Source of the DNA: an uncultured Bacilli bacterium
GTDB taxonomy: Bacteria > Bacillota_I > Bacilli_A > RF39 > UBA660
Length of the DNA: 64,000 nt
Direction of reading: 5' to 3'
NCBI GenBank assembly: GCA_944371325.1
Contig: CALVXO010000001.1
Location: 1 to 64,000, forward strand
Shown here: positions 861-13,695 of the stretch, piece after piece
Numbering within the stretch: position 1 is the first letter of the stretch
Layout of the letters: every line of letters begins with the position of its first letter
The notes under the pieces: generated by a model
Seen by the model: only the letters and a program-made list of their open reading frames with translations
Database searches by the model: none
Told to the model about the DNA's origin: nothing
Position numbers and translations under genes: made by a program

Positions 861-3074
861 TCATTTTCTTTTTATTGTATTTCTTAATCTTAAAGTATTT
901 AATATTACTGTAATACTACTTAATACCATAGCTAAACTTGCAATCATCGGATTTATAAAAATTCCAAATGGTTTTAATAATCCCATTGCAATTGGAATCA
1001 TTAAAAAGTTGTAAAAAAATGCCCAAAACAAATTTTGCTTTATATTTTTTATAGTTTTTTTACTTATATTAATTAAACTTATAATATTAAACAAATTATT
1101 ATTTGTAAGTATTACATTAGAAGAATTCATCGCAATATCTGTTCCGCTATTCACACTTACTCCAATATCAGAAATTGCTAAAGCAGGGCTATCATTTATT
1201 CCATCTCCACACATCATTACAAATTTATTTTCTTTTTGTAATTGTTTAACTACACTTGATTTTTCTTTTGGTAATACACCTGCTATTATTTGAGTTATCC
1301 CTAACTCTTTTGCTATTACTCTGGCAGTATCTTCATTATCTCCTGTCACCATTATTGGTTGAATTCTCATATCCAATAAATTTCTTAATACCTTTTTAGC
1401 TTCTATTCTTATAACATCATTTACCCCTATTAAAGATATGATTTTGTCATTTTGTACTACATATACAATACTATTTCCTTTACTTGCAAGGTCTTTTTCT
1501 TCTTTTATATATTTATTTTCAATATTATAATTATCTAAAATTTTTGAATTTCCAATAATTAATTTTTGATTGTTTATCTTTCCTATGATACCATAACCTG
1601 TTATGTTTTCAAATTCTTTAACTTCTAATTTTTCTATTTTATTTTCTTCTAGGTAGTCTACAAAGGCTTTACCTATAGGATGTGTAGTTTTACTTTCTAA
1701 ACTTCCCACTATTTGTAAAAGTTTTTCTTCTTTCATAGTGCTAAAGTTTCTAATTTCTGATATTTTTAATTTACCATATGTGAGAGTTCCTGTTTTATCA
1801 AAAATAATTACATCTGTTTTTTTAGCATTTTCTAATATCTCACTTTTCTTTATTAAGATTCCGTTGCTTGCACATACCCCTTCACTTACTATAATGGCAA
1901 GAGGAGTTGCTAGGCCTAAACTGCAAGGACAAGCAACAACTAAAATTGTTACAAATGTTGTTATTGCTGTTTCAAAACTCTGACCTATAATTAAATATAT
2001 TATAAATGTTAATATTGCTATAATTATAACAGTCGGAACAAAAAATCCCGATACTTTATCTGCAACTTTTGCTATAGGAGCTTTTGTGTTAGTTGCTTCT
2101 ACAACCAGTTTTACTATTTCAGATACAGTTGAATCTTTTCCAATTTTTTCTGCTCTATATTCAATATAGCCATCGCAATTTAAACTTCCTGCAATTACAT
2201 TATTTCCAATCTCTTTTGCTTGTGGTTTACTTTCTCCTGTTATAAATGACTCATCAAAATGAGCTTTACCTTCTATTATCTCTCCATCTACAGCTACTTT
2301 TTCTCCTGATGTACAAACTAATATATCCCCTTTTTTAATCTCATCTAATGTTACTTTTTTTAATTTTCCATTTACCTTTATCATAGCTGTATTAGGCGTT
2401 ATTTTTACTAGTTTTTGTATAGCTTCTTTTGTTTTATCTTTGCTTAAACCATCTATGAATCTTCCAAGTTTTACAAAATAAATGACTATGCTTGAAGATT
2501 CAAAATATAAATTCATAACTAATTGATAATTTCCCTCTAATACTAAATACATATTATACAGACTATATAAAAAACTTGTAATAACACCAATTCCTACTAA
2601 AGTGTCCATATTAGGTGTTTTATGAATAAAATTTTTGTATCCATTTCTTATAATATCAAATCCGTATATAATAAAACATAATGTAATTCCTAATAGTACA
2701 AACATGTAGTTTATTGTATAAACATGTGGATCTAAAAAAGATAAAACCGGCAATTTTATCATGTACCCCATAGAAATATACATTAAAATTATGGCAAGTA
2801 CAGTAAATATAATGAATTTTACTTTTTCTGTTTGATTTTTTTTATTAATATTTATTTCTTTAAATTCACCTAAACTTTTAAAACCTGCTTTTTTAACAAA
2901 TTCTTCAATTTTGGTTTTATTTAATTTTGATTTATCATATTCTATACTAGCGTTTGCCATTACTAAATTTACTGAAGCATTTATAATTCCATCTTGTTTA
3001 TTTAAGTATTTTTCTAATCCATTTGAACAAGCAGAACAAGTCATTCCATCAATAGATAAAATTATTTTTTTCAT
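861..3074 (-). CDS. copA: Copper-translocating P1B-type ATPase
   Basis: This membrane pump exports Cu(I) at the cost of ATP. It has 737 residues. An N-terminal HMA domain carries GMTCSAC (Cys13 and Cys16). Further along come membrane helices from about residue 87, the actuator TGES (279-282), the CPC ion motif (382-384), phosphorylation motif DKTGT (426-430), the HP motif (465-466) and GDGIND (623-628). The last helices keep the YN and MxxS residues typical of Cu(I) pumps. The start overlaps the copZ stop by one base (TAATG), so the two are translationally coupled. It is the last gene of csoR-copZ-copA. The sequence looks intact. Confidence 0.96.
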   Translation of the reverse strand: MKKIILSIDGMTCSACSNGLEKYLNKQDGIINASVNLVMANASIEYDKSKLNKTKIEEFVKKAGFKSLGEFKEININKKNQTEKVKFIIFTVLAIILMYISMGYMIKLPVLSFLDPHVYTINYMFVLLGITLCFIIYGFDIIRNGYKNFIHKTPNMDTLVGIGVITSFLYSLYNMYLVLEGNYQLVMNLYFESSSIVIYFVKLGRFIDGLSKDKTKEAIQKLVKITPNTAMIKVNGKLKKVTLDEIKKGDILVCTSGEKVAVDGEIIEGKAHFDESFITGESKPQAKEIGNNVIAGSLNCDGYIEYRAEKIGKDSTVSEIVKLVVEATNTKAPIAKVADKVSGFFVPTVIIIAILTFIIYLIIGQSFETAITTFVTILVVACPCSLGLATPLAIIVSEGVCASNGILIKKSEILENAKKTDVIIFDKTGTLTYGKLKISEIRNFSTMKEEKLLQIVGSLESKTTHPIGKAFVDYLEENKIEKLEVKEFENITGYGIIGKINNQKLIIGNSKILDNYNIENKYIKEEKDLASKGNSIVYVVQNDKIISLIGVNDVIRIEAKKVLRNLLDMRIQPIMVTGDNEDTARVIAKELGITQIIAGVLPKEKSSVVKQLQKENKFVMMCGDGINDSPALAISDIGVSVNSGTDIAMNSSNVILTNNNLFNIISLINISKKTIKNIKQNLFWAFFYNFLMIPIAMGLLKPFGIFINPMIASLAMVLSSITVILNTLRLRNTIKRK

Positions 3075-3286
3075 TATTGTTCTCCTACAACTTCATATCC
3101 AATATCTTCAAGTGTTTTTTTTATATTTCCACTGGGTAAATTATCTTTTGCCATTATAGTAACTTCTCCTGTAATATGATTAGCAAATACATTTTCAATT
3201 TCATCAATGTTTTTTAAAACATTTTTTACTCTATTTTCACAATTTACACACATCATACCATTTACTTTTAAAATTATTTTTTTCAT
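3074..3286 (-). CDS. copZ: Copper chaperone, HMA domain
   Basis: A 70-residue single HMA-domain protein of usual CopZ length. The Cu(I)-binding motif GMMCVNC lies near residues 10-16, with the conserved late Gly-Tyr at GYEVVGEQ. CopZ carries Cu(I) in the cytoplasm to CopA and, when loaded, also feeds the CsoR sensor. The gene sits 25 bp downstream of csoR and overlaps copA by one base, so all three are probably made from the csoR promoter. The pairing with a copper ATPase and a CsoR makes copper much more likely than other metals. Confidence 0.92.
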   Translation of the reverse strand: MKKIILKVNGMMCVNCENRVKNVLKNIDEIENVFANHITGEVTIMAKDNLPSGNIKKTLEDIGYEVVGEQ

Positions 3287-3311
3287 TTAAAATCAATTCC
3301 TTCCTATAATT

Positions 3312-3611
3312 TTATTTATTAAATCTTTTGAATAAACTTATTATTTCATCAATCGTGTCAAACTTTCCATTTTCCATATCACGAGCAATACAAGTATATA
3401 AGTGATTTTCTAGCATTTGATTCGACAAACTTTTTACAGAATTTTCTATCGCTGATAATTGAATTAGAATATCATTACAATAAGCATCATCACTTATCAT
3501 TTTTCTTACACCTCTTATTTGACCTTCAATTCTATTTAACCTATTATTTAACAGCTTTTTTTCTTCTTCGTTTCTAATTGTTCTCTTTTTACAACATTTA
3601 TTATTATCCAT
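3312..3611 (-). CDS. csoR: CsoR-type copper-sensing repressor
   Basis: A 99-residue all-helical repressor of the CsoR/RcnR/FrmR family. The Cu(I)-ligand set of CsoR is present and correctly spaced: Cys45, then 24 residues to His70, then 3 residues to Cys74. The core RLNRIEGQIRGVRKMI (about residues 24-39) is the family DNA-binding helix. In this family Cu(I) binding releases the protein from its operator. Its own promoter contains a TATACCCC/GGGGTATA inverted repeat, which fits autorepression of csoR-copZ-copA. An extra CC pair at residues 6-7 lies outside the known site. Confidence 0.94.
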   Translation of the reverse strand: MDNNKCCKKRTIRNEEEKKLLNNRLNRIEGQIRGVRKMISDDAYCNDILIQLSAIENSVKSLSNQMLENHLYTCIARDMENGKFDTIDEIISLFKRFNK

Positions 3612-3630
3612 ATAAAATCACCCATAGCTA

Positions 3631-3674
3631 ATTATATACCCCTTTGAGTATATTGTAAATATAGGGGTATATAA
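3631..3674 (-). promoter_or_regulatory. csoR promoter with CsoR-type operator
   Basis: On the minus strand TTTACA (3654-3659) and TATAAT (3631-3636) are separated by exactly 17 bases. A perfect inverted repeat, TTATATACCCC (3632-3642) and GGGGTATATAA (3664-3674), overlaps the -10 and lies upstream of the -35. Known CsoR operators are GC-centred TATACCCC-like sites, so repression by CsoR is likely. The same 66-bp gap must also end transcription of the upstream radical SAM gene. Confidence 0.75.
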
Positions 3675-3677
3675 TAA

Positions 3678-4571
3678 TTATCTATCTTTGGAAGACTGTC
3701 GTATTTTTTCATGATAAAAATAATTTATTATAATTGGTTTACCAGTTGGATTTTTAAGAAAAGGTTCCTCATCTATCACATACATAAATCCAAATTTATT
3801 TGCATATTCTTCTACCTGTTTATCTAAATCTTCCCAATATGTCATATCTTTTTTTGTATATATCTTATTATATAATTCTTTTAATTCAGGACGCTTTTCA
3901 TTTATGTAATCTATGATTTTATGTTTGAATGTTCCTCTTAAATTAAGATTTTCAAGCCATATATAATCACAAAAATCTTTTATCTCTTCCATAATTTCAA
4001 ATACATTTGTTATTTCAGGAAATATAGGCGAAATAAAACAAGCAGTTCTTATTCCTGATTCGTGTACTTTTTTGATAGCTTCTATTCTTAGTTTTATAGA
4101 TGGTGCATCATCCATATCATTTTTAAAATCTTCATCTAATGTATTTATAGACCAAGCTACTAAAGGATTAGGATAACTCTTTATTAAATCTATGTCTCTT
4201 GTTACTAGATTGGATTTTGTTGTAATAATCAAATTAATTTCACTACCTTGCATTTCCTCTAAAAACGCTCTTGTTCTTTTATATTTTCCTTCAAAATAAT
4301 TATATCCGTCAGTAACTGATCCAACTATCATTGTTTGTCCTTTGTACTTTTCAGGAGTCTTTATTTTATCCCACATTTTAACATCTAAAAATCTACCCCA
4401 ATCTTCTTTATGATTAGTAAATCTTTTCATAAATGTTGCATAACAATACTTACATCCAAAAGGACAACCAATATAAGGATTTATAGAATAACCTGCGATT
4501 GGTAAATTAGATTTTGTTAAAATAGTATCTACTTTTTTTTCTTTTATAATTACGTTTTTTAAATCTATCAT
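3678..4571 (-). CDS. Radical SAM mobile pair protein B (SPL-like)
   Basis: A 297-residue radical SAM enzyme. CPFGCKYCYA (near residues 37-46) is the CxxxCxxC motif that binds the 4Fe-4S cluster and SAM, in a fold like spore photoproduct lyase relatives. It is the second of two adjacent radical SAM genes (ATG overlaps the stop of the first by 4 bases) that together match the family pair named in databases for its presence on mobile elements. The reaction is unknown. The context, an HxlR regulator in the same operon, suggests inducible expression. Confidence 0.8.
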   Translation of the reverse strand: MIDLKNVIIKEKKVDTILTKSNLPIAGYSINPYIGCPFGCKYCYATFMKRFTNHKEDWGRFLDVKMWDKIKTPEKYKGQTMIVGSVTDGYNYFEGKYKRTRAFLEEMQGSEINLIITTKSNLVTRDIDLIKSYPNPLVAWSINTLDEDFKNDMDDAPSIKLRIEAIKKVHESGIRTACFISPIFPEITNVFEIMEEIKDFCDYIWLENLNLRGTFKHKIIDYINEKRPELKELYNKIYTKKDMTYWEDLDKQVEEYANKFGFMYVIDEEPFLKNPTGKPIIINYFYHEKIRQSSKDR

Positions 4572-5230
4572 TTCCTACCTCCAAAATCTTTGGGAAACTC
4601 TTGTATCATTTCTTCCTCAGATAATATTCCAAATAAGTCCTCTTTCATAAATACAGGAATATTTTTTTCTTTGGCTTGGTTGTAAATATTTTCTACCCAT
4701 TCCCTTTTAGTAATTCCTTTATTTTTTCTATTTCCTGTTTCAGTACCTATAACTATCCAAGAAATATCAGTTAAATCAAGATTTCCTACATCATCAAACA
4801 TTGGCTCAAATGTAAGATGATAGTGTTTTGCTTTTATATTATTTCTAAGTTCATTTATCCTATATTTCTCTTTAGATGAAGTAATAGTTACACCAAACCA
4901 ACCATTATCAGGTGTATTATCTATTTTAATTTTTTCAGGTCTTTTCGTTAAGAAAATGTATTGTGTTTCTTTATTTTTTTTCATTCTTTCAAAGACTTTT
5001 CTTAACCAATCTTTATCCCAACCTGATAGATCGCTTTGCCCTGTTAATAGATATGCACCATATTTTTTATTATCTAACATTTTTAATTTATTCTCAAAAA
5101 ACACAGGTTTATTAAAATCATCTATAGTATGAAATCTATTATTATTCATTCTTGCATAACAATAAGGACAACCTATATTACACCCAATGACTATATTTAT
5201 GTTTTTAATATTATCTTTTATACACTGCAT
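4568..5230 (-). CDS. Radical SAM mobile pair protein A (DUF5131-like)
   Basis: A 220-residue radical SAM protein. The cluster motif is CNIGCPYCYARM near residues 18-29. Further blocks YIFLTKRPEKI, WFGVTITSSKEKYRINEL and WIVIGTETGNRKNKG are the signature of the phage Gp37/Gp68-like (DUF5131) group. It lies 18 bp after the HxlR gene and overlaps protein B by 4 bases, so the three form one operon. The substrate is not known. The start at 5230 has a strong GGGAGG ribosome binding site. Confidence 0.8.
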   Translation of the reverse strand: MQCIKDNIKNINIVIGCNIGCPYCYARMNNNRFHTIDDFNKPVFFENKLKMLDNKKYGAYLLTGQSDLSGWDKDWLRKVFERMKKNKETQYIFLTKRPEKIKIDNTPDNGWFGVTITSSKEKYRINELRNNIKAKHYHLTFEPMFDDVGNLDLTDISWIVIGTETGNRKNKGITKREWVENIYNQAKEKNIPVFMKEDLFGILSEEEMIQEFPKDFGGRK

Positions 5231-7939: not shown

Positions 7940-9800
7940 TATTATAATTATTTTTAATTCTTAAAACTCTTAAAGCATTTACAATGGCTAGCACAGAAAC
8001 ACCAACATCAGCAAATACTGCTTCCCACATAGTTGATACTCCGAATGCACTAAAAATTAAAACTCCAATTTTTACTGCAATAGCAAATACTATATTTTGT
8101 TTTACAATTCTCATTGTTTTTTTAGAAATCTGAACAGAACTTGCAATTTTAGATGGCTCATCTGTCATAATAACCACATCAGCTGCTTCAATAGCTGCAT
8201 CACTTCCAAGGCCACCCATTGCTACTCCTATATCAGATAGTGCTAGAACTGGAGCATCATTGATTCCATCTCCAACAAAGATAAGTTTTCCTCCAGATGA
8301 TTTTTGAGTCATTAATTTTTCTACCCAAGAAACTTTATCTTGTGGTAATAATTCTGCATGATACTCGTCTAAATTAAGTTCATTAGCTACAGACTCACTA
8401 ATATTATCACGATCTCCTGTTAACATAACAACTTTTTTAACATTATTGTTTTTAAATAATTTTACTGCTTTATAAGAATCTTCTTTAATTTTATCAGCAA
8501 TTAATATTGTTCCTGCAAATTCATCATTTATTGCAACATATACTATTGTTCCTGTTTCTTCACTCTTTTGAAATTTAATATTATATTCTTTCATTATTTT
8601 TTCGTTTCCAACTAAAACCATCTTTCCATCTACTTTTGCTAAAACACCTTTACCTGAAATTTCTTGTGTTTCAGTAACAAGTTTTTCATTAATTTCTTTA
8701 TTGTATGCTTGTTTCAATGAAATAGAGATTGGATGATTAGAAAAACCTTCTGCATAAGCTGCATATCTTAATAACTCATCATCAGAGTATCCAATAGATT
8801 TAATTTTTTGAACCTTAAATACTCCCTCTGTTAATGTTCCTGTCTTATCACACACTACAATTTCAGCACTTGCAAGAGCTTCTAGGTAATTACTTCCCTT
8901 TATTAAAACCCCTATTTTAGAAGCTGCTCCTATTCCCCCAAAGAATGATAAAGGAATAGAAATAACCAAAGCACATGGACAAGAAACAACTAAAAATGAC
9001 AATGCTCGATATAACCAATCACTAAATAAGGCTTCTTTAATAACAAGAGGAGGAATTACTGCTAATGCAACTGATACTATAACTACAATAGGAGTATAGT
9101 ATTTTGCAAATTTGCTAATAAAGTTTTCAGACTTCGATTTTCTACTACTAGCATTTTCTACTAAATCTAATATCTTACTAACAGTTGATTCTTCAAATTC
9201 TTTACTTACTTTAATTTTTAAAATTCCATCATTGTTTATACAACCACTTAATACTTCATCATTTACAGTTACTTTTCTTGGTACTGATTCTCCTGTTAAT
9301 GCTTGTGTATTAAGCATTGATTCGCCATCTACTACAATTCCATCTAAAGGAATTTTTTCTCCCGGTTTTACTAATATAATTTCTCCAATATTTACTTCAT
9401 CTGGATCTACTCGTTCAATTTCATCCTCTCGATATACGTTAGCATAGTCTGGCCTTATATCCATAAGACTTGCAACAGACTTCCTTGACCTATCTACTGC
9501 ATAGCTTTGAAATAATTCTCCTATTTGATAGAAAAGCATTACTGCAACCGCTTCTGGGAATTCTCCAATGCAAAATGCTCCAATTGTTGCAACAGTCATT
9601 AAAAAGTTTTCATCAAAAACTTTACCTTTAAAAATATTTCTTACTGCCTTCAATACAATGTCATAACCCACAATTATATAAGCAATTACATACAAAATAT
9701 TACTATATAATTCGGTATCAAATTTAAGCAATAAGGAAATAACAACCAATAAAAGAGAAATAATTATCTTAATTAATTGCTTACTCATTTTTCGGCTCAT
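7932..9800 (-). CDS. cadA: Cd/Zn/Pb-translocating P1B-type ATPase
   Basis: A 622-residue heavy-metal exporter. It has TGES (169-172), the CPC ion motif (274-276, SCPCALVIS), DKTGT (318-322), an HP motif in SNHPISISL and GDGINDAPVL near residue 505. The late GVAMGGLGSDAAIEAADV block is typical of ZntA/CadA pumps. It lacks the N-terminal metal-binding domain, which is encoded instead by the small gene just upstream (9806-10030), five bases from the cadA start. Together with cadC this is a Cd/Zn resistance operon; the exact metal range is inferred. Confidence 0.93.
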   Translation of the reverse strand: MSRKMSKQLIKIIISLLLVVISLLLKFDTELYSNILYVIAYIIVGYDIVLKAVRNIFKGKVFDENFLMTVATIGAFCIGEFPEAVAVMLFYQIGELFQSYAVDRSRKSVASLMDIRPDYANVYREDEIERVDPDEVNIGEIILVKPGEKIPLDGIVVDGESMLNTQALTGESVPRKVTVNDEVLSGCINNDGILKIKVSKEFEESTVSKILDLVENASSRKSKSENFISKFAKYYTPIVVIVSVALAVIPPLVIKEALFSDWLYRALSFLVVSCPCALVISIPLSFFGGIGAASKIGVLIKGSNYLEALASAEIVVCDKTGTLTEGVFKVQKIKSIGYSDDELLRYAAYAEGFSNHPISISLKQAYNKEINEKLVTETQEISGKGVLAKVDGKMVLVGNEKIMKEYNIKFQKSEETGTIVYVAINDEFAGTILIADKIKEDSYKAVKLFKNNNVKKVVMLTGDRDNISESVANELNLDEYHAELLPQDKVSWVEKLMTQKSSGGKLIFVGDGINDAPVLALSDIGVAMGGLGSDAAIEAADVVIMTDEPSKIASSVQISKKTMRIVKQNIVFAIAVKIGVLIFSAFGVSTMWEAVFADVGVSVLAIVNALRVLRIKNNYNNR

Positions 9801-9805
9801 GATAA

Positions 9806-10030
9806 CTATACCTCCTCAATGGTTACATCTGGTTCTTCTTTCTTTATGATTTTTCTAATTTTCTCTAATGCTTGTTCCTTATTTTCTTCAGTACATTCAA
9901 AGTTTAATTTTTGTGTCATAAAACTGATACTAACATTCTCAATAATATCAATTTTTCGTAATGCTCCTTCTAATTCATTTGCACAATTTGCACAATCTAA
10001 GTTTTTAATTTTAAATTTGTATTTGTTCAT
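9806..10030 (-). CDS. Stand-alone HMA metal-binding protein
   Basis: A 74-residue HMA (ferredoxin-like) domain with the metal motif LDCANCANELEGAL (Cys13 and Cys16). It sits between cadC and cadA and probably acts as the detached N-terminal metal-binding domain or metallochaperone of CadA. A Glu-rich tail (EEPDVTIEEV) could add metal ligands. It has its own AAGAAGG ribosome binding site and ends five bases before the cadA start. Confidence 0.85.
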   Translation of the reverse strand: MNKYKFKIKNLDCANCANELEGALRKIDIIENVSISFMTQKLNFECTEENKEQALEKIRKIIKKEEPDVTIEEV

Positions 10031-10054
10031 TTTAATCCTTCTTTCTTTATATTT

Positions 10055-10417
10055 TTAACCTTTATGGTTAATGTGCACTAAACCAATTTCAAACAATTTA
10101 ACAATATGTTCATCATCCAAAGTATAAAATACTTCTTTTCCACTTTTTCTGCACTTAACAACTCCACTTCTTCTAAGAACTGCAAGTTGGTGTGAGATAG
10201 ATGATTTAGTCATATTTAGTACATTTGCTAAATCACAAACACACATTTCGCTTTGATCTAATGCAAATAAAATTCTACATCTTGTTGTATCTCCTATCAG
10301 TTTGAATAAATCTGCTAAATGGTTAAATGTGTCTTCATTTGGCATTTTTTGTAATACCTCATCTACAGCTTCTTGATGAATAACATTACAATCACAAGAA
10401 AATTCACTTCTAGACAT
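10055..10417 (-). CDS. cadC: CadC/SmtB-type ArsR-family metal repressor
   Basis: A 120-residue winged-helix repressor that dissociates from DNA on Cd(II), Pb(II) or Zn(II) binding. Both metal sites known in the family are visible: the alpha3N site (Cys8 and Cys10 with Cys59 and Cys61 in MCVCDL) and the alpha5 site (Asp102, His104, His115 and His118, spaced DxHx10Hx2H). The recognition helix is in NMTKSSISHQLAVLRRSGVV. It heads the operon cadC-HMA-cadA, and palindromes lie in its promoter. Confidence 0.94.
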   Translation of the reverse strand: MSRSEFSCDCNVIHQEAVDEVLQKMPNEDTFNHLADLFKLIGDTTRCRILFALDQSEMCVCDLANVLNMTKSSISHQLAVLRRSGVVKCRKSGKEVFYTLDDEHIVKLFEIGLVHINHKG

Positions 10418-10447
10418 AAATTCCCTCCAATAATATTATATGTTTTT

Positions 10448-10504
10448 AGTTGAATGTTTGCTCAACTGATTATATTATATATGAATAATTATTCAACTGT
10501 CAAT
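10448..10504 (-). promoter_or_regulatory. cad promoter with CadC/SmtB-type palindromes
   Basis: The minus strand has TTGACA (10499-10504) and TATAAT after 18 bases. A perfect palindrome TGAATAATTATTCA (10482-10495) fills the spacer. A second imperfect repeat, AGTTGA/TCAACT (10448-10467), lies downstream over the start region. Both resemble ArsR/SmtB operators, so repression by CadC is likely. Confidence 0.75.
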
Positions 10505-10568
10505 AGTTTATAAAATCTTTTTAAATAATTTTAAATGAAGTAATTTTTTTGATATGTTTCCTAATAAA

Positions 10569-10846
10569 ATGAAATTAGAAAAAGTAAAGAAGAAAATAAT
10601 GTATTTCCAATTGGTAATGTATATAATTAAAAGGAATATAGAAAATACATTATATCGTTTATATTCCCGAGGATTACAATTTAAAACAAAGTTATCCTAT
10701 TTGTATAACACTACCAAGCTATGAGGAATTATATTTCCAATTAGTTAGCGTAAATTTAAAATGCAAAGTTTTTGCTAGTGAAACTAAAAAAATTAATATT
10801 CAAATGATTATTTAAGATTCGCACCTTAATAATTTGCGAGAATCTT
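10569..10846 (+). pseudogene. Degraded coding remnants in the 10505-10960 gap
   Basis: Two overlapping short frames are present. An ATG frame at 10569-10724 gives 51 residues (MKLEKVKKKIMYFQLVMYII and on). A second frame, open from 10642 to the TAA at 10813-10815, has natural composition (YNLKQSYPICITLPSYEELY and on) but no start codon. Both contain YFQLV, because ATTTCCAATT is repeated in the DNA. An imperfect hairpin (10814-10823 with 10835-10846) follows the stop. I read this as a decayed gene. The rest of the gap shows no clear gene. Confidence 0.3.
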
Positions 10847-10943: not shown

Positions 10944-10969
10944 TATATACTATATATACTTTATATACT
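10944..10969 (+). repeat. Three 9-bp direct repeats TATATACTW
   Basis: TATATACT recurs at 10944, 10953 and 10962, exactly 9 bp apart, across the stop codon of the replication-initiator-like gene. They could be iteron-like or simple low-complexity sequence. Confidence 0.4.
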
Positions 10970-11656
10970 TTGATTAATTGCATTCTTAAAATAACCAAAT
11001 TTATTTTTAATCTCTTTCCCATCTTCGTCTTTAAATTTATTTGATATAACTCTTGGAACAATATAATGTATCATTGTCATAAGATCTCGATAGGAATTAT
11101 CTTCTAATAATTTTTCAAATAAACTATCATAATAAAATATTTGACTATCTTCTTCATTTATATAATTTGTTTCTATTAATTCCAAAGTCAATCTATTATG
11201 TTCTTCAGCAACAAAAAAAGATGATATCGTTTTATCATCTTTATCTATTTGTTTATTAGTATTTATTATATTAGTATTTATTTGTGGGTGTTCTTCCACA
11301 TCTGGAATATCCAGGTGTGGAATTTCCATATCTGGACTACTTTTTTTGTTATCAATATCAATATAATTTGGTTTTTCATAAATTAAATAATTATATTCAA
11401 AATAACCTTTATCTCCTCTAACTTTTTCAATTTCTAAATAATGATTTTGTTGTAGTTCTTTTAAAGTTGATCTTATAGCATCTCTATTTTCTTTACTAAT
11501 TGAACATAAACCTTTTAAAGAATAATCCCAATCTTCTGGCAATGATAACATGAATGACAATAAACCTTTTGCTTTATAGCTTAAATTTTTATCTCTTAAA
11601 TGATAATTACTCATAACTGTAAAATCTTTCGTTTTTTCTATTTTGAACACTGACAT
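10961..11656 (-). CDS. Replication-initiator-like helix-turn-helix protein (DUF6017-like)
   Basis: A 231-residue protein. Residues 1-100 match the N-terminal winged helix of plasmid/ICE replication-initiator-like proteins: TVMSNYHLRDKNLSYKAKGL, then SLPEDWDYSLKGL, then a recognition region with ENRDAIRSTLKELQ. The middle is a low-complexity linker. The C-terminal block (YRDLMTMIHYIVPRV, then IKNKFGYFKNAI) resembles DUF6017. The ATG at 11656 is chosen because AAAGGAG lies just ahead; the longer frame runs back into the tRNA gene. Such genes are usually found on plasmids, phages and ICEs, which supports the island reading. Confidence 0.75.
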   Translation of the reverse strand: MSVFKIEKTKDFTVMSNYHLRDKNLSYKAKGLLSFMLSLPEDWDYSLKGLCSISKENRDAIRSTLKELQQNHYLEIEKVRGDKGYFEYNYLIYEKPNYIDIDNKKSSPDMEIPHLDIPDVEEHPQINTNIINTNKQIDKDDKTISSFFVAEEHNRLTLELIETNYINEEDSQIFYYDSLFEKLLEDNSYRDLMTMIHYIVPRVISNKFKDEDGKEIKNKFGYFKNAINQSI

Positions 11657-11724: not shown

Positions 11725-11801
11725 TGGCGTCCCCGAGGTGATTCGAACACCCAATCTTTCGCTTAGGAGGCGAAGGCATTTTCCTATTATGCTACGAGGA
11801 C
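11725..11801 (-). tRNA. tRNA-Arg (anticodon CCT)
   Basis: A 77-nt cloverleaf with encoded CCA. Acceptor GTCCTCG pairs with CGGGGAC, D-stem GCAT/ATGC, anticodon stem TTCGC/GCGAA around loop CTCCTAA, and T-arm GGGTG-TTCGAAT-CACCT. It reads AGG codons. It is an intact gene just inside the putative island and shares GCCTCCTAAG with the broken copy at 11978. Confidence 0.95.
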
Positions 11802-11883
11802 ATACACCCTAATTTTAACATTTTTTTAAAATTAAGGATAATTTTTTAAAATTTAATTGTTTTTTTTAAGATAAAGATAGTTT

Positions 11884-11901
11884 TTCGCGACAAATCGCGA
11901 A
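11884..11901. repeat. Perfect inverted repeat TTCGCGA/TCGCGAA
   Basis: Seven-base arms with a CAAA loop sit between the intact and broken tRNA-Arg genes. The GC-rich arms stand out in AT-rich DNA. It could be a recombinase or processing site; no function is assigned. Confidence 0.5.
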
Positions 11902-11977
11902 TATATTTTAACTTAAAATCCTGTCCTGGCTTATAAAATAAAGGTTTAAAAATACTAACTTTTATTTTAACCAAGCC

Positions 11978-12017
11978 CTTAGGAGGCTATCGCTCTATCC
12001 TACTGAGCTACGAGAAC
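11978..12017 (-). pseudogene. 5' half of a second tRNA-Arg(CCT), cut in the anticodon loop
   Basis: The minus strand gives a canonical 5' half: acceptor GTTCTCG, D-arm GCTC-AGTAGGATA-GAGC, then ATAGC and loop CTCCTAA. Downstream the sequence no longer pairs and no T-arm follows. Instead there is an imperfect hairpin (GGCTT...AAAATAAA with TTTATTTT...AAGCC). The identity with the intact tRNA spans GCCTCCTAAG at the break. This is what site-specific integration into the anticodon loop would leave. Confidence 0.7.
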
Positions 12018-12061: not shown

Positions 12062-12077
12062 AGATAGAAAACTATCT
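12062..12077 (-). terminator. Terminator of the HD-domain gene
   Basis: AGATAG-AAAA-CTATCT; on the minus strand it is followed by TTTTTT, overlapping the stop codon of the gene. Confidence 0.65.
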
Positions 12078-12567
12078 ATTTTATAAAATTAAATAACAAT
12101 AATATAGTTAAATTAGAAGCATATCTCAATTTATAACCTAATTTATAACTAAATTCTAATAGAGCAACTTTTTTATCATATAAACTTACTAACCAACTTT
12201 CTTTATATTTAGGCACAACTAAATTTAAAGGAAACATATGACTTCTAATTATATCAGCTTCTTTTTTATTAACATTAAATTTTTCTAATGCATTTGTTTC
12301 AGCTTTCAATGGATGATTAAATGTCGAAATAAACTTTTCTTTTAAACTAACATTTTCATCATTAAAAAAGTCATGTAATAATCCACCAATAGCAACTGAT
12401 TTATAATCTAAATTATGTTTTCTAGCAAATTTATATGCTTGATAAGAAACTTTTAAAGAATGATCGAATCTTGTTATACCATGATGTTCACAATTCTTTA
12501 ATTTTAAAAATTCTTCATTATTTAATATATGCTTAACTAAATTTAAGTAATCTTCATCTAGTATCAT
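12076..12567 (-). CDS. HD-domain phosphohydrolase
   Basis: A 163-residue HD-fold protein. The metal ligands are visible: His in RFDHSLKVSYQAY, the HD pair in GGLLHDFFNDE, and a later His in NHPLKAE with IIRSHMFPLN and SLYDKKVAL closing the site. Relatives hydrolyse phosphate esters of nucleotides or similar small molecules; this one has no further diagnostic domain. It starts 90 bp inside the chromosomal side of the tRNA-Arg break, with a GGGGTGA ribosome binding site. Confidence 0.8.
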   Translation of the reverse strand: MILDEDYLNLVKHILNNEEFLKLKNCEHHGITRFDHSLKVSYQAYKFARKHNLDYKSVAIGGLLHDFFNDENVSLKEKFISTFNHPLKAETNALEKFNVNKKEADIIRSHMFPLNLVVPKYKESWLVSLYDKKVALLEFSYKLGYKLRYASNLTILLLFNFIK

Positions 12568-12605
12568 TTTTTCACCCCGAACTATAACATTATATCATAG
12601 TAAGT

Positions 12606-12641
12606 AAAAAAAAAGAATAACTTTCGTCTAAAAATTATTCG
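12606..12641 (-). terminator. Terminator of the YerB-like gene
   Basis: On the minus strand CGAATAA and TTATTC flank a loop and are followed by nine T residues. Confidence 0.6.
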
Positions 12642-13675
12642 ATTTCTAAAGTTTTACCTTTTGGTTGAATTTGAATATAAGTTATTCCATCATTAACGGT
12701 TATTTCTTTACCGTCTAAATATTTATAAACAGTTTGACTAGATGGACTCTCTTTCTCCCATGTGATAGGAACAGCATAACCATTTGAAATAAAATATCCT
12801 TCACCTTTACCAATATTGTCTATTTCTTGTCTACCATAACTATCCATACTATAATTATTTACTTGGTAAGTAATAATATTTTTTGCTTTAAATGCTTCAC
12901 CAGTAACATAATCTTTTCTTAAATCATCAACACTATATTTATTATACACTTTATTAACGGAATCATATTTAAATGTATTTTCTTGATAACCAGAATATTC
13001 AATAAATACATTATCTGCTTTAATAGCACCTTCCATAGTAGATAAATCTATTTCATCAACACTATAATTTAATAATGTATCTTTAGTAGATTTAGTTTCA
13101 TATCCTCTTTTGTCAGCAACTTTTAAAATATTTTCTATATTTGTATATGCAGTATGTTCTGAAGGAACACCATTAGCTTTTAGTTCTTGATCACGCCAAA
13201 ATCCACTATCAACCATTCCGTTTACATTGTCAATATCTAAATTATTAATATCTTCTTCAGCTTGTGGACTCCAGCCAAAATGTGTATATATTGCATCATT
13301 TTCTTGTGCATAATCTAAAAAATAATGTCTAGAACTTCTTACTGTACCAATTGTTGCAGTATCTTTATCTTTAAAAACAGCCATCATTCTAGTAATTCCA
13401 CCTTCTACAACTATCTCATAAACTAAATAAGCATCATTTAAACCTGTTTGATAAGGTTGCGCAGTTTTATGATTATTTATCATAACTGCAATTGGTCTAG
13501 TATCAGATTCTAAATCTAATATTTGTAATTTTTTTTCAACTACTGGTTCTTGATTTTTAGTTTCATCTAATTGTACTTCCTCTTTTTTATTAAAAAATAT
13601 AAAATAAACTCCTACTCCAATTAATAATACAAAAACTAAAAATACTGCTATAATTCTATCCCATCTTAACTTCAT
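12635..13675 (-). CDS. YerB-like DUF3048 cell-surface protein
   Basis: A 346-residue exported protein. A membrane anchor occupies about residues 7-28 (AVFLVFVLLIGVGVYFIFF). It is followed by DUF3048 blocks RPIAVMINNHKTAQPYQTGL, YEIVVEGGITRMMAVFKD and GTVRSSRHYFLDYAQENDA, with a C-terminal half ending in TWEKESPSSQTVYKYLDGKE. Like B. subtilis YerB it faces the outside of the cell; the molecular role is unknown. There is no lipobox cysteine, so it is an anchored protein here rather than a lipoprotein. The ATG at 13675 fits the AAGGAG site better than the one at 13681. Confidence 0.85.
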   Translation of the reverse strand: MKLRWDRIIAVFLVFVLLIGVGVYFIFFNKKEEVQLDETKNQEPVVEKKLQILDLESDTRPIAVMINNHKTAQPYQTGLNDAYLVYEIVVEGGITRMMAVFKDKDTATIGTVRSSRHYFLDYAQENDAIYTHFGWSPQAEEDINNLDIDNVNGMVDSGFWRDQELKANGVPSEHTAYTNIENILKVADKRGYETKSTKDTLLNYSVDEIDLSTMEGAIKADNVFIEYSGYQENTFKYDSVNKVYNKYSVDDLRKDYVTGEAFKAKNIITYQVNNYSMDSYGRQEIDNIGKGEGYFISNGYAVPITWEKESPSSQTVYKYLDGKEITVNDGITYIQIQPKGKTLEIE

Positions 13676-13695
13676 AATCATACTCCTTAATTAAA

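Follow-up and report, generated by a model that had tools for sequence, protein, structure and literature searches.

A tRNA-Arg(CCT) gene broken in its anticodon loop

The window, the whole 64,000-nucleotide stretch of DNA analyzed here (positions 1 to 64,000 of contig CALVXO010000001.1 of an uncultured Bacilli bacterium), very probably contains the left junction of a tyrosine-integrase element that inserted at the anticodon loop of a native tRNA-Arg(CCT) gene through an 8-bp core that is unable to rebuild the tRNA; a tRNA borne on the element would make up for the loss. The 5′ half of the native gene, from the acceptor strand to the anticodon loop plus nucleotide 39, is stranded at 11978..12017 on the minus strand, and this 40-nt half, GTTCTCGTAGCTCAGTAGGATAGAGCGATAGCCTCCTAAG, matches the intact tRNA of relatives at 39 of 40 positions, with one base separating it from nucleotides 1 to 40 of the native tRNA-Arg(CCT) found whole at the same place in loci L072, L073, L075, L076, and L081. 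An earlier note on this DNA had described a half tRNA ending in the anticodon loop at 11978 and predicted an intact tRNA in related genomes without the insert, and both proved real. The half terminates with CTCCTAAG, which comprises the 7-nt anticodon loop and nucleotide 39 and represents the common core and crossover region (11978..11985, minus strand, 8 bp), intact in 9 of 10 left junctions and in three right junctions. The sequence GCCTCCTAAG, which had been reported as shared by the two tRNAs at the break, is correct, and the right-hand junctions narrow the core within it to these 8 bp.

The junction is sharp. Comparison of the window with the empty site of genome G014 indicated an identity of 94% across the 108 bp that end with the core and of 45%, which is the alignment background, over the 60 bp past it. 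The chromosomal flank (12076..13681, minus strand), consisting of an HD-domain gene (12076-12567) and a DUF3048 gene (12635-13681), is syntenic with relatives, and the empty-site relatives of the same genus, which include Candidatus Faecisoma merdavium and are otherwise uncultured Bacilli metagenome-assembled genomes (MAGs), have the native tRNA-Arg(CCT) whole after these same two genes. Inspection of the junction in the window indicated that the sequence adjoining the core is not the 3′ part of a tRNA; the regenerated intact tRNA that marks a classical reconstructing tRNA-site island is thus absent from it. ARAGORN and Rfam called only one tRNA here, the intact tRNA-Arg(CCT), and did not call the half. 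The earlier note had regarded crossover at the anticodon loop as a departure from the usual, but this is common, being found in 2083 of the 3919 islands in Islander (PMC4383910). The unusual feature is that the tRNA is left unrebuilt: the anticodon-centred islands in Islander share with the present case a tyrosine integrase, the anticodon-loop crossover, and a tRNA fragment at one end, whereas they restore an intact tRNA by means of the 3′ part that the island itself carries.

The left end and the substitute tRNA

The element-borne substitute tRNA-Arg(CCT), with an encoded CCA, is located at 11725..11801 on the minus strand and was identified by ARAGORN and Rfam (60.5 bits), with a full cloverleaf fold. 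It is intact and clearly different from the native tRNA, as had been noted, whereas its distance from the native half is 176 bp and not the 175 bp given before. The gap constitutes the left end of the element (11802..11977, minus strand), that is, the attP arm and the leader of the substitute tRNA, and in the alignment of left ends, the mean column identity was 81% across seven left ends from two genera. Within it are paired TCGCGA sites (11885-11890 and 11895-11900), and such a TCGCGA-type (GTCGC-type) pair, 10-11 bp apart and about 85 and 96 bp from the core, is kept in most of the homologous left ends. A similar pair is present in the integrase-bearing right end of G001 and G007. These repeats are candidate arm-type integrase sites. 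The alignment also revealed an imperfect inverted repeat, TAAAATAAAAG..CCTTTATTTTA (11934..11969, minus strand), which adjoins the core. Another inverted repeat was observed just upstream of the substitute tRNA in left ends such as those of L077 and L207 (CCTTAATTTT..AAGATTAAGG and CTTCATTTTA..TAAAATGAAG), where it overlaps the likely −10 region, and both of its arms change in matching fashion between genera.

The substitute tRNA-Arg(CCT) was present in every left end of sufficient length. A tRNA search of the window's assembly yielded the arginine anticodons ACG, CCG, and TCT and a single CCT, which is that of the substitute tRNA, although the family search of the same genome did not list this tRNA and the arginine inventory may accordingly be incomplete. 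In the ORFs of the window, AGG codons numbered 36 compared with 315 AGA codons, accounting for 36 of 432 arginine codons. The substitute tRNA is presumably expressed, charged, and functional. Because tRNA-Arg(TCT) is present and might decode AGG, however, the host may benefit from the substitute without strictly needing it.

Split tRNAs and tRNA introns are interrupted in the anticodon loop, which is where the break falls, and the two halves could in principle be the parts of a split or intron-bearing gene that are joined at the RNA level. This explanation is barely credible, in that 176 bp separate the half from a whole tRNA with the same anticodon, Rfam gave no match to a group I or II intron, the 3′ half in relatives is located behind an integrase on another contig, and the stranded half drifts, with the core itself mutated in G007.

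Recurrence at the same core and stacking

A family-wide search of 386 genomes with the substitute tRNA, with follow-up, identified ten tRNAs broken at the same core in nine genomes, including that of the window, from three genera; the genomes compared were mostly or wholly MAGs, in which most of the element contigs are broken and some junctions lie near contig ends, where misassembly is possible. The broken tRNA is the native one in seven cases (G000, which is the window's genome, and G001, G006, G007, G013, G171, and G276) and a substitute-type tRNA in three (a second break in G001, and those in G081 and G412). The core is intact as CTCCTAAG in nine of the ten left junctions, and the CACCTGAG carried by G007 is as expected from the drift of a stranded half. 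None of the ten left ends has a tRNA 3′ half at the junction.

The element was found on a different chromosomal background in G006, and in G171 and G276, which belong to another genus, the tRNA is located behind a putative beta-CASP-type nuclease gene, named from its sequence alone. In G081, the contig edge leaves 77 bp of the left end, and these match the G001 left end completely, whereas the HD proteins of the two genomes are 36% identical, which points to movement of the element between genera. In G001, the order is the native half, a left end, a broken substitute tRNA, a second left end, and an intact substitute tRNA; the substitute tRNA there is cut at the core by the second left end and, hence, is itself a target.

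The 3′ half and the integrase in relatives

The missing 3′ half, which had been predicted to lie next to an integrase, was found there in relatives. It reads CTGTAGGTCGTTGGTTCGATTCCAATCG[A/G]GGACGCCA, with the same core in front of it, and occurs once in G001 (contig C42, locus L128, 4089-4125) and twice in G007 (contig C28, locus L129), with an inner copy at 4187-4223 and an outer copy at 13126-13162. A 592-aa tyrosine integrase (2042-3820 in G001 and 2140-3918 in G007) stops about 270 bp before the 3′ half of G001 and the inner one of G007. Proteins with PF00589 are encoded at the right end in G001 and G007, and one was also found inside the G013 insert. The outer 3′ half of G007 continues into a chromosomal flank with a ligase-like gene and tRNA-Thr, which in G009 and G014 comes immediately after the intact tRNA, and the identity of this region to the empty site is 93% past the core and at background level ahead of it. 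Two chromosomal tRNA halves therefore bracket an island in G007, although no single contig was found to span both junctions of one element with certainty.

Between the two 3′ halves of G007 is a segment that lacks an integrase (L129, 4224-13085) and has genes of sugar, Nudix, and radical-SAM type. It terminates in a right end that shares 75% identity with the right end of the integrase-bearing element, and it stands in tandem with that element. In addition, a large serine recombinase gene is located shortly after tRNA-Thr(GGT) in L073 (9654-11447), and this neighboring site may host another element.

The segment beyond the inner 3′ half of G007 (L129, 4187) comes after an intact tRNA in L080, and a classical element of the reconstructing kind may therefore have occupied this site in the past. 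Such a neighbor would fit the idea that the window harbors a classical rebuilding tRNA-site island, the own 3′ half of which disappeared later, with a captured tRNA taking its place. We consider this improbable, given that 0 of the 10 left ends have a tRNA 3′ half at the junction and that the left end with its substitute tRNA is conserved across genera, so that any loss of a 3′ half must predate the spread of this type of element.

The contig ends at the left edge of the window, and the far end of the window's copy is accordingly inferred from the relatives. In the window's own assembly, a 92%-complete MAG, no convincing 3′ half was found with either CGAGAAC, the 3′ end that had been expected, or the correct one, CGAGGAC, and a search for the right end likewise gave nothing convincing; the expectation had been misled by a one-base drift of the window's half. 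An integrase for the window's own copy was not found either, the candidate integrases of its genome lying elsewhere. The two closest relatives of the integrase there are on C17 and C45, and the one on C17 was rejected because it adjoins a 3′ half of tRNA-Arg(TCT) and, hence, belongs to another, classical site. That locus (L136, about 1190-1250, G000:C17), with the tRNA-Arg(TCT) 3′ half, the tyrosine integrase, and, further on, a VirD4/TcpA-like gene, is apparently a classical tRNA-site element of conjugative type in the window's genome.

The G013 insert was likewise considered as a complete element and set aside, the tail of L074 aligning with a right end only slightly better than shuffles (98 compared with a shuffle maximum of 87), and no 3′ half was found in its right flank. 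Between its substitute tRNA and its integrase, L074 encodes a 925-aa P-loop protein with a weak AAA match (8047-10824), for which PADLOC gave no match.

That the 3′ half was found neither in the window's own assembly nor at the right flank of G013 would be in line with an ordinary pseudogene, in which a random deletion or rearrangement removed the 3′ half and an unrelated extra tRNA lies nearby by chance. We regard such a coincidence as very improbable, because the ten breaks in three genera fall at the same 8 bp and, except in G013, are each followed by related left-end sequence, the substitute tRNA follows wherever the contig reaches, and the 3′ halves with the same core adjoin an integrase. 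The empty sites of relatives and the integrase-adjoining 3′ halves instead support the reading offered in the earlier note, namely, anticodon-loop integration with a rescue gene.

Cargo of the window's element

Next to the substitute tRNA is a gene for a replication initiator of phage or plasmid type (HTH_36; 10961..11656, minus strand; PF13730, 1e-7; phrog_4707, 1e-20), followed by accessory cargo that runs off the contig (1..10960), as assigned by Pfam, PHROGs, and NCBIfam matches. The metal-related cargo includes a CopA-type ATPase, a metal-sensitive repressor, a cadmium-type ATPase, and an ArsR regulator, and the remainder includes the radical SAM mobile pair A/B, an HxlR-type regulator, and an IS605 TnpB; these genes may not all belong to one element, and the view of the element is partial. 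The radical SAM mobile pair proteins A and B are encoded at 3678-5230, adjoining the HxlR-type regulator, with the TIGR04471 match slightly under and the TIGR04470 match over the cut-off.

Phage structural genes were absent from the scanned ORFs of the window's stretch, in which the element is seen only in part. No carrier was found among the viral contigs scanned for the junction, the substitute tRNA, and the integrase, or among the phage and plasmid records searched. We therefore class the element as a non-phage island that uses the same mechanism as tRNA-dependent lysogeny, and not as a case of lysogeny.

Proposed mechanism and relation to known systems

In the proposed mechanism, the tyrosine integrase, the probable agent of insertion, would recombine the 8-bp core of the element with its identical counterpart in the anticodon loop of the host tRNA-Arg(CCT). 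The native gene would be destroyed because the element has no copy of the tRNA 3′ half at its left end; the 5′ half would stay at the left, and the 3′ half would end up next to the integrase gene at the far end. The complete tRNA-Arg(CCT) of the element, about 170 bp inside, could then take over AGG decoding, and its anticodon arm, which retains the core, would offer a target for the next element, giving rise to stacks.

The same mechanism has been established experimentally for mycobacteriophages, which have a short core in a tRNA gene, do not reconstruct it, and carry a cognate tRNA; this tRNA-dependent lysogeny is known for Fionnbharth, Gaia, and LeBron and for Gordonia phages (Guerrero-Bustamante & Hatfull, 2024, PMC10865867). 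The common features are a tyrosine integrase (here in the copies of relatives), an attB core in a host tRNA gene (8-17 bp there and 8 bp here) without reconstruction, a whole cognate tRNA of the same isotype on the element, and candidate arm sites around the core. The present case differs in that no phage structural genes were seen in the window's stretch, the host is an uncultured gut Bacilli bacterium, the target is tRNA-Arg(CCT), the substitute tRNA is found at the end away from the integrase, roughly 170 bp inside the junction, and stacking occurs on the substitute itself. A non-reconstructed tRNA together with a cognate tRNA in the element is also reported for the Lj965 prophage of Lactobacillus johnsonii and for phage-related sequences of Sinorhizobium meliloti (cited in PMC10865867 and PMC11476347), which are prophages in other hosts.

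Thus, the trick itself is already known in a few phages. New in the present case are the non-phage carrier, the Bacilli host, the target tRNA-Arg(CCT), the stacking on the substitute tRNA, and, likely, the replacement. A mechanism established for few phages would thereby extend to chromosomal metal-resistance islands of uncultured Bacilli, and several junctions show the tRNA of one element being used as the integration site of the next.

Possible long-term replacement of the native tRNA

The empty, single, stacked, decayed, and apparently replaced sites represent a natural series that bears on how a mobile tRNA may displace a core tRNA gene and on how elements make their own loss costly. It is possible, although we propose it only tentatively, that a mobile lineage of tRNA-Arg(CCT), spread by non-phage elements through disruption of the resident gene, now stands permanently in place of the native chromosomal tRNA across several genera of the family, with each substitute becoming the next target, the elements ratcheting onto one another, and the hosts coming to rely on a tRNA borne by an element. 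In some other genera, the substitute-type tRNA is located directly behind the HD gene. The decayed native half in L149, L152, L155, and L156 was no better than shuffles. In L150, the only clear case, a decayed native half lies between the HD gene and the substitute-type tRNA, with 17 of 26 positions matching and none of 300 shuffles doing as well, which suggests permanent replacement of the native tRNA.
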